Virus record (IMG/VR): IMGVR_UViG_3300037586_002113
Span: 1 to 25,502 of that record
From: a virus
Reading direction: 5' to 3' (one strand)
Length of the DNA stretch: 25,502 nucleotides
Both the position numbers and the translations under genes were made by a program. The notes under the pieces are model-generated. The model was not told the DNA's origin, made no database searches, and saw only the letters and a list, made by a program, of their open reading frames with translations. How positions within the stretch are numbered: the first letter of the stretch is position 1; the number at the start of each line of letters is the position of its first letter. Positions 1,711 to 20,413 of this stretch are shown piece by piece.

Positions 1711-2057
1711 TTTTTTGAAGCAGTTTCCACCGATTCAATTTCTGCAAACATCTGATTGGCGATCTCAGATATAACAGTTGTCTCCTCGCCCATTAGGTCG
1801 ATGCGATCTTCTGCTGCGGTGAATAACTTGTCACCTGATTCATCTTGCGCTTTCATCACAATCAGATCGACCATAGCGGCAACGGTGGTATTCTCAAGAA
1901 ACTTGGGGTGCTTCTTTTGCAGACGATTGAGATCGTCACAGGTAATCGATCCGCAATACAATTTAAACGCCTCGCCTTTCTCATCCGACCAGGCTTCCAC
2001 CACCACCTCGCGCAGTGGTATATCACGCCTTGAGCGCAACTCTCTAGCCAAGCCCAT
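1707..2057 (-). CDS. Tail assembly chaperone (G-like)
   Basis: The 116-residue protein is acidic and helical. It sits between the major tail protein and the tape measure, where the lambda G-type tail chaperone lies. Its ATG overlaps the stop of the major tail gene (TGATG), indicating translational coupling. G binds the tape measure during tail assembly and is absent from the virion. The last codons form the slippery A AAA AAC next to the TAA stop, so a minority of ribosomes should make a longer GT fusion. Sequence similarity alone is weak; position and the frameshift make the call. Confidence 0.8.
   Translation of the reverse strand: MGLARELRSRRDIPLREVVVEAWSDEKGEAFKLYCGSITCDDLNRLQKKHPKFLENTTVAAMVDLIVMKAQDESGDKLFTAAEDRIDLMGEETTVISEIANQMFAEIESVETASKN
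1710..1716 (-). promoter_or_regulatory. Programmed -1 ribosomal frameshift site (A AAA AAC)
   Basis: On the minus strand the chaperone frame reads TCA AAA AAC TAA, giving the canonical X XXY YYZ heptamer A AAA AAC directly before the stop codon. A slip of -1 gives AAA AAA CTA and continues for 47 residues into a T-like domain. Both the position at the end of the gene preceding the tape measure and the overlap match the conserved siphovirus G/GT arrangement. Confidence 0.85.
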
Positions 2058-2458
2058 CAGTGTGCCGCTTCGGTAACAGCGCCTGAGACTTGAATGCTAA
2101 AACTGGCCTCGACCATGCCGTCAAAAGATACGTTGATCGCCTTGCTGGTGACAATGCCAGTGCCTGTGTATTTCTTCGAGCCAGAACCCGTGCCTGATGG
2201 ACTGATTTCAAAATCAATGCTGGCGCGATTGTCTAAGACTAGTTGCTGTGCATCTGCTTGATCCCAATAGCATTCGAGCGACACAGTGTTACTTTCAAGC
2301 CCTGGTTTATACGACCTAGCTGTATCGCCCATGACGCTGTCTTCGACTGTGTCAGCACTACCATCAATGCTGAAAGACCGCACCTCGCCAACCACTGCCA
2401 CTGTAGTTCCCGTCAATTGCAATTTTACTACTCCGCTTGTACCCGTTGCTGTTGCCAT
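2057..2458 (-). CDS. Major tail (tube) protein
   Basis: The 133-residue protein begins MATATGTSGVVKLQL and is rich in Thr, Ser, Gly and Val with predicted beta strands. The segment with VGEVRSFSI and a later FEISPSGTG resembles tail tube proteins of the lambda V/TP901 type, which stack as hexamers around the tape measure. It lies just upstream of the chaperone gene, where the tube gene is expected. It is preceded by a leader of hairpin, U-tract and AAAAGGTAAAT ribosome site that is nearly the same as the leader of the major capsid gene, consistent with high expression. Confidence 0.85.
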   Translation of the reverse strand: MATATGTSGVVKLQLTGTTVAVVGEVRSFSIDGSADTVEDSVMGDTARSYKPGLESNTVSLECYWDQADAQQLVLDNRASIDFEISPSGTGSGSKKYTGTGIVTSKAINVSFDGMVEASFSIQVSGAVTEAAH

Positions 2459-2525
2459 GATTATTTACCTTTTAAATGGGCGAAAAAAAACCGCCTTTTG
2501 GCGGTCTGTTTCATCGTTGAATTAA
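2459..2525 (-). repeat. Duplicated 5' leader cassette, copy before the tail tube gene
   Basis: Positions 2481-2525 are identical over 45 bases to 4719-4763 upstream of the capsid gene. The following 24 bases to the ATG are also similar, sharing AAAAGGTAAAT, and have exactly the same length in both copies. The cassette therefore contains a hairpin, a U-tract, a ribosome site and fixed spacing. It precedes the two virion proteins expected to be most abundant. Confidence 0.85.
2483..2505 (-). terminator. Intrinsic-terminator-like hairpin before the tail tube gene
   Basis: The minus-strand RNA folds ACCGCC-AAAA-GGCGGT followed by eight U residues. It lies between the tail terminator stop (2527) and the tube gene start (2458). 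It could end transcription, or serve as an RNA processing or stabilising element, since a late transcript must pass it to reach the tube gene and no promoter fits between it and the ATG. Confidence 0.8.
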
Positions 2526-2526
2526 A

Positions 2527-2961
2527 TTAAGTTGTGCCGCGTGTGTATTCGTACAGCACACGAGCGTTTAAAATGACCCCGCCAAAGGGATCGATTGAGC
2601 CTTCATCAATTTCTATATTTGTAATTTGGGTATCGAGCGCAAATCCACCTCGCGTCCTATCTGCGTCCAGCCCTTCTTCAACCGCTTCGATAATGCTATT
2701 GCGAGCCGTATCAATGACCCCCGCCTTTACAAAGCATACAAGCTCATAGCTAATCGTTGCCTGACGCTTGCCAATCGTTCCCCCCACGGTTGAATCTTCT
2801 CTGTTCTCGTCTGCGGTTCTGACCAGAATTGCGGGGAATTGGGCGCTGGATAATTTCTCGAAATCAAACGGCTCTCGCGTGATGTAGCCGATACGCAGAG
2901 GTGAGTAGACCGCCTTGAGTGTTGTGACTATATTTTTAGCAATAGATTCGCGAACACTCAT
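2527..2961 (-). CDS. Tail terminator / tail completion protein
   Basis: The 144-residue protein begins MSVRESIAKNIVTTLKAV and contains FPAILVRTADE and a C-terminal NARVLYEYTRGTT. This matches the pattern of tail terminator proteins (lambda gpU / HK97 gp10-gp11 neighbourhood): an N-terminal helix, a central beta sheet and a C-terminal strand with an aromatic tail. Such proteins cap the tail tube and form the head-tail joining surface. Its ATG overlaps the upstream stop (ATGA at 2958-2961). The call relies mostly on gene order between the gp10-like gene and the tube gene. Confidence 0.65.
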   Translation of the reverse strand: MSVRESIAKNIVTTLKAVYSPLRIGYITREPFDFEKLSSAQFPAILVRTADENREDSTVGGTIGKRQATISYELVCFVKAGVIDTARNSIIEAVEEGLDADRTRGGFALDTQITNIEIDEGSIDPFGGVILNARVLYEYTRGTT

Positions 2962-3407
2962 TTCATAAACCTTTCAAATGCTCTGCCCAACTCTTTCTGT
3001 TCAGCGCGACTGAAGCCGAAAAACGGGCGCGATTTGTTGTTGCGAGTGGCTTTGTCCAACTCTCTGCCCCTGGTGAAGCTGAGAGTTGCCTTGGTGCGCG
3101 TCACACGGGTGGTGATGCTGCTCAACATCTTGCCACTCAGATGGAGATTGGGCGTGATTGAAGTCTTGCCGCCCCCGCCTTTGGCTGTGGATGTCGTTTT
3201 CCATTCCGCATAATCTTTAGAATATTTCTTAAAGCGTTGGCCATCGATATTCTTGCCCTTCTCGGTTCTGTCGAGAATCATCCTTACGCCTACGGATGCG
3301 GTGCGAGTGAGCGCGGTTTTAACGCTTCCCAGCGCATTTGTTCTGCGCTTCTTGATCACGCCCCTGAAGCTCTTGGGTTTGATATCTACTTTGACGATCA
3401 TGCTCAT
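2958..3407 (-). CDS. HK97 gp10-like head-tail joining protein
   Basis: A basic protein of about 149 residues starting MSMIVKVDIKPKSF. It contains LDRTEKGKNIDGQRFKKYS, a pattern common to gp10-like/minor tail (lambda Z-like) proteins, and a later LHLSGKMLSSI, also typical. A GTG at 3413 is in frame, but the ATG at 3407 overlaps the upstream stop as ATGA and is preferred. It would help complete the neck or tail top. Neighbours on both sides are coupled by overlaps, so these head-tail genes are probably co-translated. Confidence 0.65.
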   Translation of the reverse strand: MSMIVKVDIKPKSFRGVIKKRRTNALGSVKTALTRTASVGVRMILDRTEKGKNIDGQRFKKYSKDYAEWKTTSTAKGGGGKTSITPNLHLSGKMLSSITTRVTRTKATLSFTRGRELDKATRNNKSRPFFGFSRAEQKELGRAFERFMK

Positions 3408-3814
3408 CGGCACAACCGCCCATCGTGAATTGGGGTTTTTTCATCGTTATCTATGGTTGAACTGCCGTCATCGTCATACTCGATGCCATCTTGAAAGACC
3501 GCCTCGATTTCTTCTGTGTAGCGAGATTTGTAAAAGGCGATCATGCCCTGAAATCTATCGCCCTCAACCCAGTTGGTGAGTTGCGGTAAAGCGTACTTCC
3601 ACAGCACCAGATAGGCGTTGCTTCTTGCCCACTGCGACTCGGTCAGGTAGGTAGTATTCAACTCGCCAGAAAGCCCTCGCTTTGGCCACCACTCCGCTCT
3701 GATCTTGCGCTCAATGTCGGCCTGTGCTTTGGCGTGTTCCGCTGCAAATGAGCCAATCCCCAAGCTGAAGATATCGGGGAGAATCTCCACCAAATCTGCA
3801 TCTGTTGAAAACAT
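3404..3814 (-). CDS. Head-tail connector / adaptor protein
   Basis: A 136-residue acidic protein with several Trp residues. It starts after GGAG at good spacing and begins MFSTDADLVEILPDIFSLGIG. Position directly after the major capsid gene and before the gp10-like gene is where the gp6/gp15-type adaptors or stoppers lie. No catalytic motif is seen. It is preceded by an intrinsic terminator hairpin at 3827-3856, only a few bases before its ribosome site. The function is from position; the family is not certain. Confidence 0.55.
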   Translation of the reverse strand: MFSTDADLVEILPDIFSLGIGSFAAEHAKAQADIERKIRAEWWPKRGLSGELNTTYLTESQWARSNAYLVLWKYALPQLTNWVEGDRFQGMIAFYKSRYTEEIEAVFQDGIEYDDDGSSTIDNDEKTPIHDGRLCR

Positions 3815-3826
3815 AGTTACTCCAAT

Positions 3827-3856
3827 AAAAAAGCCCCACCCCCGAAAGGATGAGGC
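3827..3856 (-). terminator. Intrinsic terminator after the major capsid gene
   Basis: The minus-strand RNA forms GCCTCATCC-loop-GGGTGGGGC, nine pairs including G-U, followed by six U residues. It starts seven bases after the capsid stop and ends just before the GGAG of the connector gene. With the hairpin at 4721-4743 it brackets the capsid gene. Confidence 0.8.
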
Positions 3857-3862
3857 GTGTCG

Positions 3863-4696
3863 CTAAAGTGCCGCGTCAGATAACATTTCAACACCGTAGG
3901 AATCATCGAGTTCACCAACACCGTAGCAAGCGGTAGCATTAAGCTCCCATGCTCGGTTGGAAGCATCGCGTTCCGCTTCGATATTGAAGTCACGTTTAAT
4001 GGCAATGGCCAACGCTTCTGGAGCGAATACCGCACCTTTAGCATCGTCACTTCCGTCCACGGTTATATTGGCTGACTCGTAAATGTTCACCCCAGCGATA
4101 GTGCCTACATAGCCATTTTTCATAGCCGCATTCTGTAGATCACCGCCATTGGGATTGGCGAACGTGTTGGTCAGATTGGCTTTCAGTTGATAAGCCTGGT
4201 ACGGATGAACAACAGCATTGATCGCACCAGTGACCTTGTTAGCTCTCAGAGTAGCCGCTGCCTTAAAGATATCCGCAACAGTAATCTCAGCGCCAGCCGC
4301 TCCGATTGATGTGCTGAAGCCATCGAACAGAGCGATCAGGTCGGTGTCGATCTTGGTGGCTATAGAGTTGCCTAGAACCACGCCAAGGTCTGCCGCTGGA
4401 TCGCCAGCACCCATTTTGCCCATGTCGTGAAGCAGGACTTGTGCGCCCACTTCCGCAACCGTTACTGTAACTGATGAGGTGGATACCGTGGTGCTGGTCA
4501 TATCCGTGCCTTCAGTCAGAGCAGCCGCTGTGATAGCAGGGTACTTAGGTACTTGAATTGTTTTGCCAGCTTGTGAGCCGATGTTGTATTGAGTGACAAG
4601 ACCTAAAAGCAAAGATTGCTCTGAAGCGGTGTGTCGAGCTTCAAGAATAATGTTCGCAAATAGGTCATCGAGGGTTGTGCTAGTAGTAGCAGCCAT
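3863..4696 (-). CDS. Major capsid protein
   Basis: A 277-residue protein beginning MAATTSTTLDDLFANIILEA. It is rich in Ala, Thr, Val and Gly with a central AVVHPYQAYQLKANL segment and a C-terminal DSYGVEMLSDAAL. Features fit an HK97-fold capsid protein: an N-terminal helical arm, a spine/P-domain and a segment resembling 'VVHP..Y' often seen in these coats. It follows the scaffold gene and precedes the connector. It is bracketed by hairpin terminators and carries the same 5' leader as the tail tube gene. No protease gene is nearby, so maturation may depend on the separate scaffold. Confidence 0.85.
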   Translation of the reverse strand: MAATTSTTLDDLFANIILEARHTASEQSLLLGLVTQYNIGSQAGKTIQVPKYPAITAAALTEGTDMTSTTVSTSSVTVTVAEVGAQVLLHDMGKMGAGDPAADLGVVLGNSIATKIDTDLIALFDGFSTSIGAAGAEITVADIFKAAATLRANKVTGAINAVVHPYQAYQLKANLTNTFANPNGGDLQNAAMKNGYVGTIAGVNIYESANITVDGSDDAKGAVFAPEALAIAIKRDFNIEAERDASNRAWELNATACYGVGELDDSYGVEMLSDAAL

Positions 4697-4763
4697 GATG
4701 ATTTACCTTTTTGACAGACGAAAAAAAACCGCCTTTTGGCGGTCTGTTTCATCGTTGAATTAA
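4697..4763 (-). repeat. Duplicated 5' leader cassette, copy before the major capsid gene
   Basis: Positions 4719-4763 match 2481-2525 exactly over 45 bases, and the 24-base spacer to the ATG has the same length and shares AAAAGGTAAAT. The copy ends close to the scaffold stop at 4765. The duplication suggests a transferable expression module. Confidence 0.85.
4721..4743 (-). terminator. Intrinsic-terminator-like hairpin before the major capsid gene
   Basis: ACCGCC-AAAA-GGCGGT followed by eight U on the minus-strand RNA, located between the scaffold stop and the capsid start. It is identical to the hairpin at 2483-2505 and shares stem, U-tract and CGTCT flank with the one at 10049-10073. Confidence 0.8.
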
Positions 4764-4764
4764 G

Positions 4765-5424
4765 TCAAGTCGGCCTTCGCTTTGCAGCAGCATAGGCTTC
4801 ACGCCCACCCTGTTGGTAGTTATCGACCATCTCTTGATATGACATTTGTTTTTGAACTGAACCGCCAGTATTTCCCTGACTGCCAGAACCGCCAGCCGAT
4901 GCCCTCACAAAATGGGGGTTGGCTGTGAGAAATTCGGAAACCGCTTCGTCTACCGTCAGCAGATCACCCTTGTCGTTGTATCGAGGGGCGTTGCTGCTAT
5001 CGGTGACTTCCACAGTGCCGTCCTCTGCTAATCGAACCTTACTTTTTAACAGAGTGGATACTTGCGCTACATCAACTGCGTTATTTCTGCTCGCTGCTGT
5101 GGTCAGTGCGCCATCTATCAGCGTTGACTGCAACCGCGCTTTGTAACTGTTGATCTCAGCGTCTTTCTTTTCGACAGTCTGTTTCAAGATAGAATCGAAC
5201 TCGCCTCGCTGTTTCTGCGCCTCGACTTCAGCCTCATTGCGTTTCTCAATCAACTCTCTAGCTTCATCGAGATTGATACCGCCAAGTTGCTTGTCGAACT
5301 TTCTCTGCGCTCGCTCAATGCGAGTAGCTACGACTTTGTCCATTTCTGCTTGAGTGAATGTCTTTTCCTGAGTTGTTTCGACTGTCTCAGTATCAGTTTT
5401 TTCCATGATTTCTTCATCGCTCAT
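4765..5424 (-). CDS. Capsid scaffolding protein
   Basis: A 219-residue highly charged protein. Residues of about 20-100 are predicted coiled coil (FTQAEMDKVVATRIERAQRKF onward, with many Glu/Lys/Arg heptads), followed by a Gly/Ser-rich linker and a basic tail ending AAAKRRPT. This is the plan of phage scaffold proteins of the DUF4355/gp6-like type, in which the basic C-terminus binds coat protein. It has a good ribosome site (AGAGG) before the ATG and lies directly upstream of the major capsid gene. The scaffold would assemble the procapsid and leave it. Confidence 0.8.
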   Translation of the reverse strand: MSDEEIMEKTDTETVETTQEKTFTQAEMDKVVATRIERAQRKFDKQLGGINLDEARELIEKRNEAEVEAQKQRGEFDSILKQTVEKKDAEINSYKARLQSTLIDGALTTAASRNNAVDVAQVSTLLKSKVRLAEDGTVEVTDSSNAPRYNDKGDLLTVDEAVSEFLTANPHFVRASAGGSGSQGNTGGSVQKQMSYQEMVDNYQQGGREAYAAAKRRPT

Positions 5425-5451: not shown

Positions 5452-6324
5452 TTAAAAAACAGGTCTCCAGTGGTGCTGACAGTTGTAGCCACCTCTGGCA
5501 ATCATTGCATCGCTGGACGATTTACCCGCCCAGCTTCCAGCCCACAGATCGGCAATCTCCTCATCGGTGTAAATATTGCCCTCGCGATCTCTGCAAAACT
5601 GTCTTGAGCCTGACGATGTGCCGCCATAGTATTTCCACTTAGTAGCGCCAGCCTCTTTGCCAATTGCGGTATTTACTGATGCATCAAACTGCATCAAGCT
5701 ATCCTGAGCGTAAGTTTGTGAATAGCGTCTTAAGTTATTGCCGACCCTATCCCTCGCATACAGGCTGTGTAGTTTTTCAACCGCATCTGCGCTCTGTGCT
5801 GCCGTGCCAGTTTTAGCGATCTCAACCAGCTTCTGTGCCTCGGCATCATTGGTCTTGATATAGACCCCATTGATCGTCTGCTGAATGGTTTTGACTGAAT
5901 CGGTAAAAGCTCGATTGGTGAGAGTGCTTTGATACACCTCGGTGGCGATCACATCTAGATATTCGTTGGCTATCGCCTCAAAGCCTTTAAAGGAGAGCGA
6001 CTGCAACTGGGTGATGATTCGCGGATTCAGCTTCATCACAGGGCTGTACTCGCCAAGCATCTCATAGGTCGAGGTGGCTATGCCCTGGTAGCCCTTGAGG
6101 ATGTTTTGCACCTCGGTCAAATAGGTCGCTTCAATCGCGGCCTTGATCTCTATCCTTCTGCCAACCGCCCAGCCCAGATCGTGCAGATTGCCATCGACCA
6201 GGGGCGCTTTTGACATAATGCCCACAAGCTCTTTCTCCAATCGCTCCAGTGAGTCGGAGAGCCTTTGTTGATGTTGTAAGGTTAGCGTTTCAAGAAGGTC
6301 AGCGTATTCGGTATCTTTAGGCAT
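5452..6324 (-). CDS. Head morphogenesis protein (SPP1 gp7 / Mu F-like)
   Basis: A protein of 290 residues. The C-terminal region has FCRDREGNIYTDEEI and then RGGYNCQHHWRPVF, the diagnostic end of the Mu F/SPP1 gp7 minor head protein domain. The rest is long and helical. The ATG at 6324 overlaps the portal stop by eight bases (ATGCCTAA); an in-frame TTG at 6333 is a weaker start. Such proteins bind portal and are packaged in a few copies, affecting DNA ejection. It lies between portal and scaffold, as expected. Confidence 0.85.
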   Translation of the reverse strand: MPKDTEYADLLETLTLQHQQRLSDSLERLEKELVGIMSKAPLVDGNLHDLGWAVGRRIEIKAAIEATYLTEVQNILKGYQGIATSTYEMLGEYSPVMKLNPRIITQLQSLSFKGFEAIANEYLDVIATEVYQSTLTNRAFTDSVKTIQQTINGVYIKTNDAEAQKLVEIAKTGTAAQSADAVEKLHSLYARDRVGNNLRRYSQTYAQDSLMQFDASVNTAIGKEAGATKWKYYGGTSSGSRQFCRDREGNIYTDEEIADLWAGSWAGKSSSDAMIARGGYNCQHHWRPVF

Positions 6325-7696
6325 CTGTTTCAACAGGGAACTGACCCAGAACGCTCACGCTCTCCTCGATCTCCCTGTGCGCCTCAGTCAACTTATCTTC
6401 GTCAAGAACTAGATCGGCAATCCGCATATCGACCTCCTGCTGGAGCGTCACAGATTTAACGCCTGATGCTTTCATCTGCTGAAGGAACATTAGCTCTTTA
6501 TCGTAGTCTCTTAAATCAAATGCATCTGGGTATGAAATCTCGACATCTGGAGTCACATCTTGCCACTCACAGAACAGCCCCCATAGCTGCTCTTCTGCCA
6601 GTTCAAGGATATCGGCTTTCTCTGACAGCTTGGCATTCAGCATCTGGAACTCAGTCTGCATTGCTACGCCCGACTGGGTCATGGCCTCTGTGCCTCTAAC
6701 CGCTCCCATGTGGGACATTCTATTAATCGCCTCAACCTTGTCTGTAATCGAGGCTCTCACAGCGTCTAGGTTCTGACCGCTGGGCTGCATCTGATAGGGC
6801 TTTAGATTTCCATCAATATCATCGGGGAGGTTAATGATAGCCCCCGCCCCTGCGCTGGCATCTGTGCCAAAGGTTTTGACGAGCGTAGGATGGTTACTGA
6901 TGCGGATCAGTTGCTCGATCTCGGATAGCTCCTGATAGATAGCTCGCTGCATATAAGCCACATCGCTTAGATCGGAAACACCTATGCCCCTAACTACTGA
7001 GCGTTGCGCGGGAAGGAACACTGCGGGTATCTTGCCCAGCGTGTTCTCCAGATGCTCAAGCACTGTCTCTGTTTCGCTGTCGCTGGAAACCTTGACCGTC
7101 CTGATATCGTCCTCAGTCCAGATTCTGTAGTAAGTCTCTGTCTCCGCGCCTTCGCGCTCTATTGACTCCCTGACCTTTAAATAGATCAGCTTAAATCTAC
7201 CGCTGGCGGTGCGCTCATACTTCCAATCAAACACGTTCTCAGGCGTAAACATCGTCAGATAAGGGCGAATGTCTTGCGCCAGTTCCTCTGCCTTGGTCGC
7301 GGCATTGGATTTGGGCTTGTCGATCATCAGCCACACATGACCATAAACGCTCGACCATACTTGCGCTTGCCGCATAAATGCATTGAGGCTGCGTCCATCC
7401 AAATCGCAATCGTCTAGGAAGGGCTTGAGCGAGCCATTGTTGGTCAGTGAGTTGAATGCCCTTGTGGGCGGTACGCGCCACAGGAAGCTAGAGTAGATAT
7501 GCACAATGTTCTTGCAGTGATTATCCATAGGGGTCAGGTCGAGTCTGCGGCTGTACTCACCCTTGTCTTCAGATACATATTGAGTCAGGTAATTGCCGTC
7601 AATGTACTCCTGCCCACCCATATAGCTGCGTAGGTAGAACTCCCACTTTGCGCTGTTCTCGTCATAGCTTGAGTGCGTTGATTCTATATCTGCCAT
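6317..7696 (-). CDS. Portal protein
   Basis: A 459-residue protein following terminase and preceding the head morphogenesis gene. It is acidic with mixed alpha/beta content, and contains a stem-like segment around GKIPAVFLPAQRSVVRGIGVSDLSD and a long helical region after ISNHPTLVKTFG, a pattern of DUF4055/SPP1-type portals. Portals form the dodecameric ring through which DNA is packaged. The terminase stop and the portal ATG are directly adjacent (TAGATG). The start is firm because of that spacing. Confidence 0.85.
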   Translation of the reverse strand: MADIESTHSSYDENSAKWEFYLRSYMGGQEYIDGNYLTQYVSEDKGEYSRRLDLTPMDNHCKNIVHIYSSFLWRVPPTRAFNSLTNNGSLKPFLDDCDLDGRSLNAFMRQAQVWSSVYGHVWLMIDKPKSNAATKAEELAQDIRPYLTMFTPENVFDWKYERTASGRFKLIYLKVRESIEREGAETETYYRIWTEDDIRTVKVSSDSETETVLEHLENTLGKIPAVFLPAQRSVVRGIGVSDLSDVAYMQRAIYQELSEIEQLIRISNHPTLVKTFGTDASAGAGAIINLPDDIDGNLKPYQMQPSGQNLDAVRASITDKVEAINRMSHMGAVRGTEAMTQSGVAMQTEFQMLNAKLSEKADILELAEEQLWGLFCEWQDVTPDVEISYPDAFDLRDYDKELMFLQQMKASGVKSVTLQQEVDMRIADLVLDEDKLTEAHREIEESVSVLGQFPVETDA

Positions 7697-9947: not shown

Positions 9948-10048
9948 GCATTGCACCTGTGAAAGTTTGGCGACCCCACGACTTAGGAAAGGGGAAGTAG
10001 TCGCTTCAATGGGTCGCACAGGTCACCTAAAAAGGCCGCCTATAGACG

Positions 10049-10073
10049 AAAAAAAACCGCCAATAAAGGCGGT
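10049..10073 (-). terminator. tR'-like terminator just after the late promoter
   Basis: The minus-strand RNA forms ACCGCC-loop-GGCGGT followed by eight U residues. It ends about 55 bases after the predicted start of the promoter at 10113-10141 and about 100 bases before the lysozyme gene. It shares stem, U-tract and downstream CGTCT with the hairpin before the capsid gene. Its place matches the terminator that Q must override in lambdoid phages. Confidence 0.8.
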
Positions 10074-10112
10074 CTATGAATGATTTATGCGTGGTTCTCT
10101 CCACTGTAGAGA

Positions 10113-10141
10113 ATTAGATCACATTTTGTGTGAACTGTCAA
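10113..10141 (-). promoter_or_regulatory. Putative late promoter (pR'-like)
   Basis: On the minus strand TTGACA (10141-10136) is followed by 17 bases and TCTAAT (10118-10113), a near-consensus sigma70 promoter. Transcription would begin near 10106, pass a terminator at 10049-10073 and enter lysozyme. A Q-like antiterminator gene lies a short distance upstream at 10657-11190, the arrangement of lambda pR'-tR'-Q. Confidence 0.75.
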
Positions 10142-10656: not shown

Positions 10657-11190
10657 TTATTCTTTCAGCCCCCGATGAATCGCCTTGCTGATCTCGGACT
10701 CCATCACCGAATATTCCGACAACAACAAGCTCAATCGCTTTTGCCAGAGCCTAGCTCGCCAGCCGCTGACCCCCAGAATTCTCTTTAATTTCCGCGAGGG
10801 TATTTTTTTGACCCCCACCCCCTCACAGGACGGGCACTGGATTAATTCATTGCCGACTGTCAACTCCCCCACCCCACCACATTTTCGGCACAGTTGAGGC
10901 CGTGTACTCAGCAGCAATGCCATCAGCCCCAGCTTGTAAATAATCAATTTTGGCTCTTTCGCACTGCGCTCAAACTGATGCTTGTTGGCAGCGATTAAAG
11001 CAAGTGATATCAACTCAGGGTTTGATCCGTAGTCCCCCGCGAATTTGGCCAATCCATACAGATAGGTAAATCGATCAACTCGCGTCAGGCAAGCAGCAAC
11101 ATCACTTGCCGTCACCTTCAGTGAGCTTGATCCCCGTACAGATTCCAGTGGCGGTGCGCCAGCGGTGAGCATTGCCATCAACTCACTCAT
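10657..11190 (-). CDS. Q: Late gene antiterminator, Q-like
   Basis: A 177-residue basic protein. The second half has a zinc-binding pattern CRKCGGVG (near 100) and CPSCEGVGVKKIPS (near 118), followed by basic helices ending LSEYSVMESEISKAI. The order Cys-x2-Cys-x-Gly-x-Gly, Cys-x2-Cys-x-Gly-Val-Gly, Pro-Ser, helical tail is that of lambda-type Q, which binds the late promoter DNA and RNA polymerase and lets it read through terminators. The gene lies just upstream of a strong promoter followed by a terminator. The ATG overlaps the upstream stop by eight bases (ATGAGTGA), so it is coupled. Confidence 0.85.
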   Translation of the reverse strand: MSELMAMLTAGAPPLESVRGSSSLKVTASDVAACLTRVDRFTYLYGLAKFAGDYGSNPELISLALIAANKHQFERSAKEPKLIIYKLGLMALLLSTRPQLCRKCGGVGELTVGNELIQCPSCEGVGVKKIPSRKLKRILGVSGWRARLWQKRLSLLLSEYSVMESEISKAIHRGLKE

Positions 11191-11406: not shown

Positions 11407-11544
11407 CTACCTCGGTAGTCTGCCCCGCCTGGCCATCGCCCAAATCTCAACGGCCTCAGATTTATCAGCCAGCCATGAGAAAATCTGCGCCAGAATCCTT
11501 GTTGAAACTTCCAGCGCCTTGAGCGCATAAAATCTAATCGTCAT
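11407..11544 (-). CDS. Small hypothetical protein
   Basis: A 45-residue frame beginning MTIRFYALKALEVSTRILAQ and ending ARRGRLPR. AGAGG lies seven bases before the ATG. The start overlaps the end of the preceding gene by 11 bases, and the stop is inside the ribosome site of the next. It is predicted to be a basic amphipathic helix. Tight packing supports a real gene, but no function is seen. Confidence 0.6.
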   Translation of the reverse strand: MTIRFYALKALEVSTRILAQIFSWLADKSEAVEIWAMARRGRLPR

Positions 11545-11776
11545 AAATCGCCTCTTCTATGATCGCATTTAAAAAATCTAGTGCTGCTTCAGCGTCTTTT
11601 TTGCTGAAATTGTCACTGATAGAAACTCTGCACTTTTCTGTTGTCGCAGAATCGTCATAAACCGCCCCTGCGATAATCGCGTTCAAGCAATCCAGTGCTG
11701 CCTCTATGTCTTTTTTGCTGAAATCTGCTCTGACAGAAACAAACACTGTCGCTGTATTCATGCCAAATTCAGCCAT
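11534..11776 (-). CDS. Hypothetical protein with internal tandem duplication
   Basis: An 80-residue protein starting MAEFGMNTATVFVSVRADF. The ATG at 11776 follows GGGGGAG and overlaps the upstream stop by eight bases. It is made of two copies of about 33 residues: FSKKDIEAALDCLNAII...VYDD and FSKKDAEAALDFLNAII...IYDD, each preceded by a short beta strand. The repeat is also clear in DNA, so the duplication is fairly recent. Function unknown; a dimer-like fold within one chain is possible. Confidence 0.75.
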   Translation of the reverse strand: MAEFGMNTATVFVSVRADFSKKDIEAALDCLNAIIAGAVYDDSATTEKCRVSISDNFSKKDAEAALDFLNAIIEEAIYDD

Positions 11777-12938
11777 CTCGCTCCCCCTTGATTCGATCTG
11801 GATTGATAATGACCCGACTGTCCTCGCCATAAGCCTTGGAAAGAACAACGCAAGTCATCGATCTTGATGACCCAAAGCCTGAACCTGAATGCCAAGCGTC
11901 AGGACTTGCCAATACATTCCACTGCTCGAAAAGCATTCCCCCGATCTCTTTGGCTTCTTTGTGATGGAGATGTCCCAGCCAGCCATAACGGTATTTAGAG
12001 CGCCCCCATTCCACCGCCAATTTTCGGGTCACGGACTCATAGATTCGTTGAGGTGTTATCTTGTCACCGTGGTGAGTGACAATCAGAGAATTGCCAAACT
12101 CCAGATGAGTAAACTTGGAATAGTTATCAGGAATAGTGACGCGAGGATCATCGGCAAAGTACATTTTTAAAGCCTCGTTTAACCAGAGAGCCGCATCAGG
12201 ATCGTGGTTGCCGCGCACATTTAAAACAGTGACAACCTCGTGCTTTTCGAGCAGCCGAATGATTAACCGCTTGAGTAAATTCACCCCCATCCGAACTGTT
12301 CGACCATATCTACCATCGGAATCTAAAGGCGTTCCACTACCTGTTTCACTTTTGATATTATTACTGTGAAAGAAATCACCAAGATTAACCAAAAGACCAT
12401 GACGAGAATTCGGAGAACGAGCGACCAGTGAGTCCACCGCCCTCTCAAGTAAATCCACACTAATGTTCGCGTCATAATCATCTTCCCTAGTCTCCTTTGA
12501 CCAGGCGTACATCCCCAAATGGTGATCGCCAATCATGTAGCAATTCATCAACTTATCTAAAGTGCCACTGGGCGCATCAACAGGCTTATGCAACCCCTTT
12601 AATTCGTCTTTTAAGCCGTCCCGAAAATCCTCAAGCATTGCGTCCAGATCAAACTTTTCTCGCTCCTGGCGAACGTACTGGCCTTGCAAATTGCCCTCGC
12701 CATCGAATCGGCTAGTCACAAACTTGGTATTGAATCCTTCCATTGTTCGATGGTTGACATCTCGATCTGGCGCTACCCCAGATAATGCGGCTTTTTTATG
12801 AATGCGCTTCATCGCCTGGCTAATGCGACTTTGCGACACGCCCAACTCAGCAGCCGCACCTTTTTGGCTTGAGTGCTTTAAAAATGCGTTCAAAATTTCA
12901 AGCTGTCTAGCCGTGCAGAACTCTCTTAAATGCTCCAT
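11769..12938 (-). CDS. HTH-metallophosphoesterase protein
   Basis: A 389-residue protein. Residues about 1-45 form a helix-turn-helix (SQKGAAAELGVSQSRISQAM). From about residue 130 comes a calcineurin-like metallophosphoesterase domain with the metal ligands in order: IGDHHLGM, LGDFFHSN, RGNHDPDA, VTHHGDK and GHLHHKEA. It may cleave nucleic acid or phosphoester bonds during phage replication; the substrate is unknown. AGGTGA lies before the ATG, and the gene directly abuts ninG (TAGATG). The HTH suggests action on DNA. Confidence 0.85.
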   Translation of the reverse strand: MEHLREFCTARQLEILNAFLKHSSQKGAAAELGVSQSRISQAMKRIHKKAALSGVAPDRDVNHRTMEGFNTKFVTSRFDGEGNLQGQYVRQEREKFDLDAMLEDFRDGLKDELKGLHKPVDAPSGTLDKLMNCYMIGDHHLGMYAWSKETREDDYDANISVDLLERAVDSLVARSPNSRHGLLVNLGDFFHSNNIKSETGSGTPLDSDGRYGRTVRMGVNLLKRLIIRLLEKHEVVTVLNVRGNHDPDAALWLNEALKMYFADDPRVTIPDNYSKFTHLEFGNSLIVTHHGDKITPQRIYESVTRKLAVEWGRSKYRYGWLGHLHHKEAKEIGGMLFEQWNVLASPDAWHSGSGFGSSRSMTCVVLSKAYGEDSRVIINPDRIKGERDG

Positions 12939-13582: not shown

Positions 13583-14371
13583 TTAATCGCCACAAAAACA
13601 GGCTGTTGATTCATCGTCAAAATCAAAAAGCTGCCCTTGGTCGCTTGCTATGAGTTTCATTTTTGAATAACTTGGTTGATCGCCCCGAAACACTGCCCCC
13701 ATGAATTCTTCCTGCTCGATCCACCAATCAGCAAGATTTGGGTTATGTTCGACAATTGACTGTTTGATCTTGAAGCCCTTTAAGAAACATAAATCGCAAT
13801 TGCTAAGGGTATTCACAGAGGCGTGAGGCATCGCCAAATCAAAATATTGATGTTGCCAAAATCGATCTATTTGATTCTCAGTGACTTTGGCATCAGCCAG
13901 TGGCACAAAATAACTATCTTTGCCCCGCATCTTTGCCACTCTGCGCGGTTCGTCTGCTCTGATACCAACAACGGTGGCAAAATCACAATCCATGTATCGC
14001 TCAATCGTCAAAACCTTCAATTCACTGGTGCAAAACCGCGCCATCATGTTTGGCAAAAACTGCCGATCTTTGATTAGTTGTGCAAACGGCTCACCGTTTC
14101 GACTAGCTGTTTTATTATCAACAACCCTGAATGCTTTCTTGCCACAATATTCAAGCCAGATAATTTCAACGCCCCAGTTCACAGCGCAGTCATTGACGAA
14201 ATCCAGGGTCTGAGGCATTTCTTTCCCAGTGTTGCAAAAGATCACTTTCAGATAATCTGGCAGCACAAATTCATGTGCCTCTAAAATCTTATACAACATG
14301 AAAGCCGATGATCTGCCGCCTGAGAAGCTGATCACCGCTGGTTCATCGATGAAATAAGGGTTATTAGTCAC
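13583..14371 (-). CDS. PP-loop protein, PAPS-reductase-like
   Basis: A protein of about 262 residues. The N-terminus has the nucleotide-binding PP-loop ISFSGGRSSAFMLYK; further on come FCNTGKEMPQTLDFV, RFCTSELKVLTIE and VVGIRADEPRR, the order of the phosphoadenylyl-sulfate reductase/adenine nucleotide alpha-hydrolase superfamily. CDLCFLKG and a C-terminal CFCGD supply further Cys that could hold an Fe-S cluster. The start is probably GTG at 14371, overlapping the upstream stop as GTGACTAA. Phage members have been linked to sulfur or nucleotide metabolism or DNA modification; here the role is unknown. Confidence 0.8.
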   Translation of the reverse strand: MTNNPYFIDEPAVISFSGGRSSAFMLYKILEAHEFVLPDYLKVIFCNTGKEMPQTLDFVNDCAVNWGVEIIWLEYCGKKAFRVVDNKTASRNGEPFAQLIKDRQFLPNMMARFCTSELKVLTIERYMDCDFATVVGIRADEPRRVAKMRGKDSYFVPLADAKVTENQIDRFWQHQYFDLAMPHASVNTLSNCDLCFLKGFKIKQSIVEHNPNLADWWIEQEEFMGAVFRGDQPSYSKMKLIASDQGQLFDFDDESTACFCGD

Positions 14372-14486
14372 CAAATCTATTCACCTTTCTCAGTCGGCCA
14401 CACTTCTTACATCGCACGATAGATGGGCTTGCGACATCCACGCTGTAGATGCATTTGCAGTTTTTCTTCTTTGGTCGCTTAGTCAT
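14364..14486 (-). CDS. Small zinc-finger-like protein
   Basis: A 40-residue basic protein starting MTKRPKKKNCKCIYSVD and containing RCKKCGRLRKV, so a CxC plus CxxC pattern. AGGGGA lies at good spacing before the ATG. Its stop overlaps the GTG start of the PP-loop gene by eight bases. It is likely a nucleic-acid-binding or accessory zinc ribbon. Confidence 0.65.
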   Translation of the reverse strand: MTKRPKKKNCKCIYSVDVASPSIVRCKKCGRLRKVNRFGD

Positions 14487-15197: not shown

Positions 15198-15940
15198 CTA
15201 GCCCACCCGCGATCAGTTAATTTCTCCTCAATCCCTATCTTGCGAATTTTCTGAGCATCATAGAGATCGCCTTTGCGAGATTCCCTGATTACATTTGTAA
15301 GCAACTTGTGCTGCCATTCTCGGTGAGTCAGGGATGATCGACCCCAAGAATTAGATCGCGCCATCCAGTAGCTTTTGAATTCAGCCACGATTTGGTTGAT
15401 GCGCTCAGGCGGGATTTTTTCAATTTCAAGACCAGCCAGCCTCGACTGATCGGCAAAGAATGAATCGGGTTGCCAGAGATCGTACATCTCAAATTTTTGA
15501 TCGGGGGATACACCACTTTGTTGACTGGTTTGTTGACTGGTATGTTCTTTGCACTTGGTAGTTTCTACCAAATTGGACTTGGTATTTTCTACCAAATTGG
15601 ACTTGGTATTTTCTACCAAATTGGGAGTTTCTGACAAATTGGTAGTTTCTGCCAAGTTGGGAGTTTCTGCCAAGTTGATAGGAAGCGTCAGCTTGTAGTC
15701 GTTGTAGCCTGTGAAGCCGCGCTTTTTCTTGGTCAACCAGCCCAATTTTGCAAGTGATGTTGTGTGTCTTGAGATTTGAGAGATATCGCGGATGGTGGCT
15801 CTTTCGGAAATTGCAGAAAGCGAGGGGAACACTGTGTCGCTTTTGCCCTTGAAACTGTACAGCGCGAGCAGAACTTTACGCTCGCTGTTTGAGAGCCGAT
15901 CATCAGTAAGTGCTTGCAATGGCGCAACCAGATATTTCAT
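15194..15940 (-). CDS. Replication initiator, O/DnaT-like
   Basis: A 248-residue protein in three parts. Residues 1-87 are a winged helix-turn-helix (LSNSERKVLLALYSF, RHTTSLAKLGWLTKKK), like phage O proteins. Residues about 90-130 are a repeated linker of NLAET/NLVENTK units encoded by DNA iterons. The C-terminal part with YDLWQPDSFFADQ, VAEFKSYWMARS and HREWQHKLL resembles the primosomal DnaT domain. By analogy with lambda O it would bind the origin inside its own gene and recruit host helicase loading. GGGGAG precedes the ATG. No helicase gene is seen nearby, so host DnaB is presumably used. Confidence 0.8.
   Translation of the reverse strand: MKYLVAPLQALTDDRLSNSERKVLLALYSFKGKSDTVFPSLSAISERATIRDISQISRHTTSLAKLGWLTKKKRGFTGYNDYKLTLPINLAETPNLAETTNLSETPNLVENTKSNLVENTKSNLVETTKCKEHTSQQTSQQSGVSPDQKFEMYDLWQPDSFFADQSRLAGLEIEKIPPERINQIVAEFKSYWMARSNSWGRSSLTHREWQHKLLTNVIRESRKGDLYDAQKIRKIGIEEKLTDRGWAR
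15517..15540. repeat. 12-base tandem repeat next to the iterons
   Basis: TTTGTTGACTGG occurs twice in tandem at 15517-15528 and 15529-15540, encoding TSQQTSQQ. It adjoins the iteron block on its downstream side within the initiator gene. It may be part of the origin or a coding linker. Confidence 0.75.
15553..15678. other. Putative replication origin: six iterons inside the initiator gene
   Basis: Six copies of a 17-base core start at 15555, 15579, 15603, 15621, 15639 and 15657. The first is TTGGTAGTTTCTACCAA, a dyad with 6-base arms and a 5-base centre; the later copies vary at a few arm positions. The spacing is 24, 24, 18, 18 and 18 bases, always a multiple of three, so the repeat encodes the NLVENTK/NLAET linker. 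Lambda places its ori iterons in the middle of the O gene in the same way. Confidence 0.75.
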
Positions 15941-16146: not shown

Positions 16147-16260
16147 ATGGATTGTGAGGAAATTATTGAAATGATCAGGTTGTTAACTCAGGAAGAAAAA
16201 GAAATCATCATCAAGCGTCTGCTTACAGTTTCGAGCGCATCGCCACCAGCTTCTGCATAA
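16147..16260 (+). CDS. Possible small protein convergent to the repressor
   Basis: A 37-residue frame beginning MDCEEIIEMIRLLTQEEKEI and ending SASPPASA. It is a predicted amphipathic helix of the 'LLT.EEK..I...L' type seen in small regulators. AGGA lies ten bases before the ATG. The last 38 bases overlap the repressor 3' end on the other strand. It could be a real small regulator or chance; expression is not shown. Confidence 0.35.
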   Translation: MDCEEIIEMIRLLTQEEKEIIIKRLLTVSSASPPASA

Positions 16261-16552
16261 AAGCAATCTCTCTCGCTCGCTCATCATCTGAAAGTTGATG
16301 CAGCAGATCAAGAAGTTGTTTGTCCAGCGGAGTAAGCTCTGACGGCTCAGAGTCCCCAGCTTCCCCCGTTTCGATATAAATCGGATCAACGCCCAAAGCC
16401 ACACATATCTTGATCAAATATACGCTGCTTCGCTGAGTGCCAATTTCCAGACCACTGATGCGCGCCTGGTCAACCCCAGATACTTTCGCTAATGTTGCCT
16501 GTGTGAATCCAGCATCTTTTCGCGCTTTTTTCAGGCGATCTCCCATCGTCAT
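16223..16552 (-). CDS. CI-like repressor, XRE family, no peptidase domain
   Basis: A 109-residue protein. The N-terminal 65 residues are an XRE helix-turn-helix (MGDRLKKARKDAGFTQATLA, KVSGVDQARISGLE), and the rest is an acidic helical tail (LTPLDKQLLDLLHQLSDDE). The S24 LexA-like domain with the Ala-Gly cleavage site is absent, so RecA-stimulated self-cleavage is not expected. It is divergent from the Cro-like gene and would keep lysogeny by binding operators between them. GGGGTG precedes the ATG at 16552. The same strand continues into the replication operon. Confidence 0.8.
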   Translation of the reverse strand: MTMGDRLKKARKDAGFTQATLAKVSGVDQARISGLEIGTQRSSVYLIKICVALGVDPIYIETGEAGDSEPSELTPLDKQLLDLLHQLSDDERAREIAFMQKLVAMRSKL

Positions 16553-16677: not shown

Positions 16678-16715
16678 AATTGGTGTATTGGTTAAAACGA
16701 AAAAGGGTATTTTTT

Positions 16716-16910
16716 ATGGGCAATCAATTTCTAGCTGGGGCAATGCGGAATGAGCAGATCAGCCAACGCGAGTTGGGGAAACGCACAGGCGTGAAGCAGC
16801 AAACGATTTCACGCCTCTTAAATGGAACAACAAAAAACCCTTCCTTTGCCACCGCTGTGCGGCTGGCCGACTACTTCGGAGTGAACACAGATGAAATTTA
16901 CAGAATTTAA
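16716..16910 (+). CDS. Cro-like XRE regulator
   Basis: A 64-residue protein beginning MGNQFLAGAMRNEQISQREL, with a complete helix-turn-helix (LGKRTGVKQQTISRLLNGTT, residues about 18-37). It is divergent from the repressor, as Cro is from CI. AAGGG lies before the ATG at 16716; an upstream TTG lacks support. It heads the plus-strand recombination/integration operon, unlike lambda where cro heads the replication operon. It would repress the early promoters. Confidence 0.8.
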   Translation: MGNQFLAGAMRNEQISQRELGKRTGVKQQTISRLLNGTTKNPSFATAVRLADYFGVNTDEIYRI

Positions 16911-18879: not shown

Positions 18880-19072
18880 TAAATTCTGGCTATCAGCCAA
18901 AGATGTTGAGGAATTGACGGGGGCAAAGGCTCGCTCAAAGCAACAGCGAGTCTTGGACTTTATGGGCTACGGGTATAATATAAGACCAGACGGCTCTTTT
19001 GTTGTTCCGATTGAACAATTCCTTGAGGCGAAACAGAAAGAATACAAGATGGATTTCTCAGCACTTGGCTAA
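18869..19072 (+). CDS. DUF4224-like excisionase candidate
   Basis: A 67-residue protein starting MQINKFWLSAKDVEELTGAK. The 'LSAKDVEELTGAKARSKQQRVL' helix pair is that of the DUF4224 family, which lies next to phage integrases and is thought to act as excisionase or directionality factor. It overlaps the integrase start by eight bases. The role in excision is an inference from position. Confidence 0.7.
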   Translation: MQINKFWLSAKDVEELTGAKARSKQQRVLDFMGYGYNIRPDGSFVVPIEQFLEAKQKEYKMDFSALG

Positions 19073-20180
19073 TAGAACCTTAAAAGAAAATAAAAAATAC
19101 CCTAGCAACTGGCGGCTTAGAAAGCGCGGGGAAAAGGGTAAATTTGTGCTTTTTTATAGAGTGCCTAAAGCGGTGCGGCATCTTTGGGGTGATAAATCAG
19201 AGGTCAAGTTAGGAGAGGGTAAAACTTTAGTCGAGGCCGAGGAAAAAGCCTTTGCATTTTGGGCATCTAAAATATCAACGACAAGCAAACCTTACACGTT
19301 GGGCGAATTATTTAATCGATACCGCTTGCAAGTTTTGCCAACCAAGAAATCTAGTCAAAGAGACAGCAACACCTATTCACTCAATCGCCTCCAGAAGATT
19401 ATAGATTTAGATCAGCCAGTAGTAGAGTTTAAAACGCACCAAGCATATGAATACAGAGACTTTATTCACTATAAGTTAAGCGCAAAAAGGGCAAATAGTG
19501 ATATTGAAACTCTCTCCCATATCTTTACTAAAGCGATTGAATGGGGCTGTGAAAGACCGCACCCGATCATAAACATTATGAAAAAGATACCTATTGCATC
19601 CCGAGGCCGATATGTAACGGATGAAGAGTTAGATTTCTTTTTATCCGTTTGCAATGATTTTCTGAAAGTTTATGTGCCGTTGAAATTAGCTACAGGCAAA
19701 GATCAAGGTATGTTGCTAAGATTGAGGCTCTCAGAGGTTACCAAAGAGGGTGTGTATTTTGGCAAGAGAATTAAAACTGGTGCGGGGAAAGCATCTTTTT
19801 TGCCATTTGAGCATGATGGGGAGCCAACAGGGTTGCGCGAAATCATTAATGACATCATGGCCTGGAGAGCTAAAACATTAAAGGTTCAGTCAATGTTTTT
19901 ATTTGCAAGCAAACATGGCAAACCTATGTTCAACGAAAAAGGCAAGGCAACAAATTTTAGATCACAGTGGTCAAGGGCAATGGATAAAGCCATTCTTGAG
20001 ACCGACTTGTCCGAGCGATTCACCGAACACGACCTCAGAGCAAAAACTGCATCAGACATAGATAATGAAGTTGAAGCCGCCAGGCTTCTGCAACATGCTT
20101 CAGTTGCCACTACGAGAAAAATCTATTTAAGAAAACCTCAAACTGTTGTGCCATTTAAGCGAGAAAATTTGCCCCAATAA
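19065..20180 (+). CDS. int: Tyrosine recombinase integrase
   Basis: A 371-residue protein if the start is TTG at 19065 (reads LANRTLKENKKYPSNWRLRK), overlapping the DUF4224-like stop; there is no nearby ATG in frame. The N-terminus (RGEKGKFVLFYRVPKAVRHLW) is an arm-binding domain and the middle is a SAM-like core-binding domain. The catalytic domain shows HDLRAKT, LLQHAS and the nucleophile in RKIYLRK. The box I site reads LATGKDQGMLLRLRL, with Asp where the catalytic Arg is usual. It would recombine attP with tRNA-Arg. Its own stop lies in an arm-type site. Confidence 0.9.
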   Translation: MANRTLKENKKYPSNWRLRKRGEKGKFVLFYRVPKAVRHLWGDKSEVKLGEGKTLVEAEEKAFAFWASKISTTSKPYTLGELFNRYRLQVLPTKKSSQRDSNTYSLNRLQKIIDLDQPVVEFKTHQAYEYRDFIHYKLSAKRANSDIETLSHIFTKAIEWGCERPHPIINIMKKIPIASRGRYVTDEELDFFLSVCNDFLKVYVPLKLATGKDQGMLLRLRLSEVTKEGVYFGKRIKTGAGKASFLPFEHDGEPTGLREIINDIMAWRAKTLKVQSMFLFASKHGKPMFNEKGKATNFRSQWSRAMDKAILETDLSERFTEHDLRAKTASDIDNEVEAARLLQHASVATTRKIYLRKPQTVVPFKRENLPQ

Positions 20181-20263: not shown

Positions 20264-20287
20264 TATATAGCTTTAATTACGCTTGAA

Positions 20288-20339
20288 TACTCGGCTACGA
20301 ACCGAGCGGTCGGTGGTTCGAATCCACCCGAGTGCACCA
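20288..20339 (+). tRNA. 3' part of tRNA-Arg(ACG), attP core (not a full tRNA)
   Basis: The 52 bases run from before the anticodon stem to the encoded CCA. They hold the anticodon stem CTCGG/CCGAG with loop CTACGAA (ACG at 20297-20299), the T arm GGTGG-TTCGAAT-CCACC, and the acceptor end CGAGTGC-ACCA. The D arm and 5' acceptor are absent, so the fragment cannot be an independent tRNA. It restores the host tRNA-Arg gene on integration. The anticodon arm closely resembles the gammaproteobacterial tRNA-Arg(ACG). Confidence 0.85.
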
Positions 20340-20413
20340 TTAACACTGGGCTGTAGCGATTTAGCAAAAACAAGATTGCCCCAATAACTGCACATTGCCC
20401 CAATAATTAGGGG

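Follow-up and report, generated by a model that had tools for sequence, protein, structure and literature searches.

The major capsid (mcp) and major tail, or tail tube (mtp), protein genes of a marine phage with a lambda-like layout are each preceded by the same hairpin and U tract. We propose, at a probability of about 0.6, that these two leaders act as fail-safe intrinsic terminators in a Q-controlled late operon, which only Q-modified polymerase would pass. The observations on which this sequence-based proposal builds are the sequence itself, the hairpins, the gene identities, the predicted Q fold, the pR'-tR' layout and the distribution of the leaders over a clade of relatives.

Phage and gene layout

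The window, by which we mean the whole stretch of DNA analysed, corresponds to one IMG/VR virus record and is 25,502 bases long. Its genes include an integrase, repressor-like genes, an O-like replication protein, NinB, NinG, a Q candidate and a lysozyme, together with terminase, portal, scaffold, major capsid, head/tail completion and major tail genes. The late genes, including every gene at both leaders, are carried on the minus strand.

18999..20180, plus strand: integrase
16223-16552, minus strand, and 16680-16910, plus strand: repressor-like genes
3863..4696, minus strand: major capsid protein gene, mcp (PHROGs major head protein, phrog_267, E=1.1e-25)
2057..2458, minus strand: major tail (tail tube) protein gene, mtp (PHROGs major tail protein, phrog_10528, E=3.9e-14)

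An earlier note on this DNA had named the genes behind the leaders as those of the capsid and the tail tube, and the PHROGs matches listed above agree with it. When the mcp protein was searched against genome_contigs by tblastn, no relative was found. The integrase and repressor-like genes mark the phage as temperate. Just downstream of the integrase, the sequence at 20279-20340 resembles the 3' portion of a tRNA, with anticodon arm, T arm and CCA; it was matched by Rfam and not by ARAGORN and is probably the attachment site.

Two leaders with 45 identical bases before mcp and mtp

4697..4763, minus strand: mcp leader (spacer after the scaffold stop, hairpin, U8, ribosome-binding site AAAAGGTAAAT, ATG at 4696)
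4721..4745, minus strand: predicted intrinsic terminator before mcp (AGACCGCC-AAAA-GGCGGTTT, then the U tract)
2459..2525, minus strand: mtp leader (spacer after the tail-terminator stop, hairpin, U8, ribosome-binding site, ATG at 2458)
2483..2507, minus strand: predicted intrinsic terminator before mtp (same hairpin as at mcp)

The leaders lie inside the operon, at the scaffold/mcp and tail terminator/mtp borders between virion genes of the same strand. The 45 identical bases reported by the earlier note were recovered at 45 of 45 positions (2481-2525 and 4719-4763), as was the equal distance of 24 nt from U tract to ATG, and a wider similarity of 83% extends over 96 nt. By our own estimate the probability of a 45-nt exact repeat arising by chance in 25.5 kb is negligible (<1e-17), and with 45/45 identity a chance origin was rejected. 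In both copies the repeat begins where the upstream gene stops (scaffold at 4765, tail terminator at 2527), spans the hairpin and U8, and ends at CG, from where 22 further bases lead to the ATG in both leaders.

The hairpin consists of an 8-pair stem including 5 GC pairs and a 4-nt loop, followed by U8, and a terminator scan picked up both copies. It has the sequence features of an intrinsic terminator, namely a GC-rich stem of at least 5 pairs, a short loop and a U tract directly after it, and the folding z-scores of the two copies were -3.5 and -3.0. Rfam returned the tRNA piece only and no known leader RNA, and the exact leader 39-mer had no match in IMG/VR beyond the window's own record. 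In keeping with the earlier note, a search of the minus strand for promoters of the sigma-70 type found none between hairpin and ATG in either leader; expression of mcp and mtp therefore needs polymerase to pass the hairpin.

A candidate Q and its proposed late switch

10657..11190, minus strand: predicted Q-like antitermination protein, 177 aa, with CxxC...CxxC (weak phrog_127 match and fold)
10113..10141, minus strand: proposed late promoter pR', sigma-70-like, TTGACA-17-TCTAAT
10051-10075, minus strand: third copy of the stem (itself at 10054-10075), with a 6-nt loop, found by the terminator scan and proposed as tR'

The best Q-named family for the Q candidate was phrog_127, a weak match (E=0.03), and searches against the Q families of Pfam and NCBIfam gave no match. 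PF06530 matched no record, the window included, and was dropped as an uninformative test for Q. An AlphaFold2 model of the protein (pLDDT 79, pTM 0.71) had as its best PDB folds the Q-lambda chains of RNA polymerase loading complexes, 7ubn_Q and 7ubm_Q (probability 1.00, TM 0.53-0.59, Foldseek E 0.006-0.02), and the next PDB match was AlpA, another antiterminator. The product is thus predicted, by its fold only, to be a Q-lambda-like protein.

The proposed tR', which the earlier note did not include, has the stem ACCGCC/GGCGGT of the leaders and sits about 40 nt downstream of pR', between the Q candidate and the lysozyme gene. The spacer of pR' contains TCACA..TGTGA, at most a candidate for a Q binding element. 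By their anatomy we propose that candidate, promoter and terminator form a pR'-tR' late switch. As in lambda, Q follows the nin region, a terminator stands about 40 nt behind the promoter, a lysis gene comes next and the predicted fold of the protein resembles that of Q-lambda; unlike in lambda, the terminator recurs further down the operon and the Q protein is hardly similar in sequence to the known Q families.

Comparable promoter-terminator units were found after Q homologues in related viral contigs. Most of these tR' stems read ACCGCC/GGCGGT, two read ACCGCT/AGCGGT and one is different, which suggests that the terminator after pR' is kept as a structure while its stem sequence can change. 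ACCGCC stems are also common in terminators of unrelated phages, so the stem shared between leaders and tR' is weaker evidence than it appears. Specific recognition of the ACCGCC stem by this Q was discarded as unsupported, given how common the stem is and that tR' can switch it. A second GGCGG (TAGGCGGC) follows tR' in the window, at 10030-10054, and in most relatives; pairing between it and the 5' arm of the terminator stem is conceivable.

Distribution among relatives

Relatives of mcp and mtp were found on many viral contigs. In a tree built on mcp+hc+tt+mtp all carriers of the hairpin formed one clade (18 rows, SH-aLRT 98). A strong terminator preceded mcp in 16/16 distinct cases inside this clade and in 0/61 outside it, and preceded mtp in 8/15 inside and 0/72 outside. 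The earlier note had pointed to related phages as the place to look for the same leader before both genes; it proved constant before mcp and partial before mtp within the clade, and absent beyond it. Some members of the clade have a hairpin-less version in place of the mtp leader.

The stem and U8 are invariant in all mcp leaders listed, whereas loops, flanks and the mcp proteins themselves vary. The spacing in relatives is 22-24 nt before mcp and about 43 nt before mtp, so the 24-nt distance is not conserved. Fail-safe termination overridden by Q is favoured by this invariance of stem and U8 amid variable loops and flanks, with no promoter behind, and also by the use of one stem in leaders and tR' and by the confinement of the leaders to the Q-bearing clade.

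Alongside Q and tR', the window and G001 carry integrase and repressor genes; G029, an 11 kb fragment, has Q, tR' and the mcp leader. Among 18 relatives outside the clade (contigs of 18.8-32 kb, records that may be fragments) no Q-profile match, no ACCGCC terminator and no integrase were found, and the three inspected for gene content (G011, G013 and G017) looked virulent. The contrast between clade and non-clade may represent a single evolutionary event. G001 also carries an extra copy of the hairpin (L297, 17445-17466) immediately upstream of a late gene close to the tail genes; the U tract of this copy runs into the ribosome-binding site.

Within a stretch of 52 bases around the hairpin, the window's own two leaders agree at 47/52 positions, while each agrees with its orthologues at 31-34/52. 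In other genomes the orthologues are mostly closer over the same bases (36-52) than the intragenomic pair (41-43). The within-genome copies being less alike than orthologues, the other genomes inherited both leaders from a common ancestor; the values for the window indicate that homogenisation of its copies, or substitution of one for the other, took place in its own lineage. Such homogenisation, like the substitution of a hairpin-less mtp leader in part of the clade, would also be expected if the repeats were recombination linkers, kept or spread at gene borders by homologous exchange of structural modules and having no regulatory role of their own. We consider this improbable: conservation falls exactly on the terminator, stem plus U8, and leaves flanks and loops variable. 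As the sole reason for the repeats it is further disfavoured by the finding that other phages have terminators with unrelated stems at these gene borders.

A terminator after mcp

3833-3856, minus strand: second terminator type with a different stem, directly after mcp, 18 nt before the next gene

This fourth strong terminator of the window was likewise not in the earlier note. It is nearly identical across the hairpin clade, G-U pairs included, while its flanks differ, which suggests a constraint on the sequence beyond pairing alone. A terminator at this site was found in 11/13 cases inside the clade and in 14/78 outside, where stems vary.

Conserved hairpins flank mcp on both sides, and the hairpins might mark mRNA boundaries. 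If some of the transcripts terminated there, or if the AU-rich leader were cleaved, the upstream message would keep a protective hairpin at its 3' end, and mcp and mtp would each have a separate, well-translated message. RNA segmentation or stability of this kind is a serious rival, if a rather unlikely one, and fits best the hairpin after mcp, which some Q-less relatives also have; the hairpin after gene 5 of P22 and the hairpins of T1, a phage without a known Q, are in line with it. The hairpins before mcp and mtp, in contrast, are absent outside the clade, where mcp is also needed in quantity. Moreover, the invariant U8 would be needless in a 5' stabiliser and argues for termination. Of the options raised in the earlier note (a Q-passed terminator, an RNase processing point or a 5' stabiliser), the Q-passed terminator is the best supported, through the predicted Q fold, a proposed pR'-tR' unit with the same stem and leaders found only in the Q-bearing clade of this family; the other two, though compatible with the sequence, are less likely.

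Terminators in other phages

The architecture as such is known, terminators in phage late operons having long been annotated: deposited records contain them for HK97 and N15, and a stem-loop after gene 5 for P22. The earlier note had judged that a leader module of this kind would be unusual, a view that finds no support: in lambda, HK97, HK022, N15, D3, T1 and many other phages, terminators stand a few tens of nucleotides upstream of genes for mcp, mtp, the tape measure and J. In lambda the terminator precedes E (6098-6117), in N15 gene 8 and J, and in HK97 mtp (6691-6712), the tape measure, I and J; further examples were found in HK022, D3, Bordetella PHB09, Burkholderia KS9, Halomonas H4907 and T1. 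Lambdoid late operons (HK97, HK022, N15, lambda, P22 and phage L) resemble the window in having internal intrinsic terminators, which lie 14-40 nt upstream of the following start codon. Such terminators are found at mcp in lambda (E) and N15 (gene 8), at mtp in HK97, HK022 and D3, and at the tape measure and J. The lambdoid operons differ in that the mcp and mtp copies of the window are identical and share the tR' stem, whereas the stems of the reference phages examined differ from site to site.

In 13 phages, which were chosen by hand, in part as relatives of capsid matches, and include the window and G001, a home-made score placed a terminator within 60 nt before the major capsid gene in 8/13, the major tail gene in 8/12, the tape measure in 5/11 and J in 4/10. 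With phages counted as independent, this gives 25/46 for major virion genes vs 17/202 for other late genes (Fisher p=2.5e-11). Two terminator patterns were also run against IMG/VR without regard to genes; among the matches listed, many of them near-duplicates, most were located upstream of genes for virion proteins (major head, major tail, J, tape measure, sheath and baseplate).

The late operon of T1 holds many terminators. T1 is virulent and is not known to have a Q. The architecture is therefore not tied to Q in general, and gating by Q cannot explain all of it. This, together with the partial loss of the mtp leader in the Q-bearing clade and the frequency of the ACCGCC stem, forms the main case against gating.

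A 2020 analysis of phage L described the roles of late-operon terminators as not known (PMC8022706). One possibility raised by its authors is attenuation, in which incomplete read-through by Q-modified polymerase sets the RNA level of each segment and so the stoichiometry of the products. Here attenuation seems very improbable, as the terminators precede the most abundant proteins and would cut the products needed most.

Two further systems bear some likeness to the leaders. The SAS and ESAS elements of cluster K mycobacteriophages also place a repeated inverted-repeat motif just upstream of several start codons, but an ESAS is an imperfect inverted repeat of 17 bp, with a spacer of 4-13 bp, that lies beside the SAS; these elements occur at many genes and carry no stated terminator role in the passages cited here (PMC3203893). 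The 13-bp SAS motif given there, GGGATAGGAGCCC, was not matched before the start codon, where the leader reads AAAAGGTAAATNATC. In the mobile element Tn916 a terminator is reported to work as an insulator that blocks premature expression, in combination with antitermination (PMC11658703). The element and organism are different, and the terminator lies near one end instead of recurring before structural genes as in the window; within these limits the example counts in favour of gating.

Proposed mechanism and significance

In the fail-safe reading, polymerase that has not loaded Q, because it leaked through tR' or initiated at a chance promoter in the lysogen or during early infection, would halt just before mcp and again just before mtp. 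Q-modified polymerase from pR' would pass tR', both leaders and the terminator after mcp, so that the whole late operon would be transcribed. With the stem ending about 30 nt from the ATG (24 nt after the U tract), the ribosome-binding site would be free in read-through RNA. In this way the gates would prevent expression of the coat genes before the virus is committed to growth. We infer termination itself, passage by this Q and, as the benefit, silencing of the major virion genes.

More tentatively, and with the balance somewhat against it, such gates might form a general second layer of late-gene control in phages that adopt Q, lost when these turn virulent, the copies here being homogenised and sharing the tR' stem. 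As part of that joint reading, held with the same reserve, the gates would precede the genes costliest if expressed early (mcp, mtp, tape measure and J).

New here are the stem shared with tR', the homogenised copies, the association with Q and the enrichment before major virion genes. The family offers a natural comparison: its structural modules are closely related, and some occur with Q and others lack it. Terminators in front of mcp and mtp track Q and the one after mcp does not, which separates two functions that are usually mixed. The comparison makes the question testable in lambda or HK97.

Other features of the window

Short tandem repeats of 18-24 nt lie at 15537-15674 within the replication-initiation gene and are possibly origin iterons, as in lambda O. 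A 91-nt direct repeat of 79% identity at 11536-11740 forms an internal duplication in the open reading frame 11534-11848. A phosphoadenosine phosphosulfate reductase-like gene is sited at 13583-14374, in the nin-like region.
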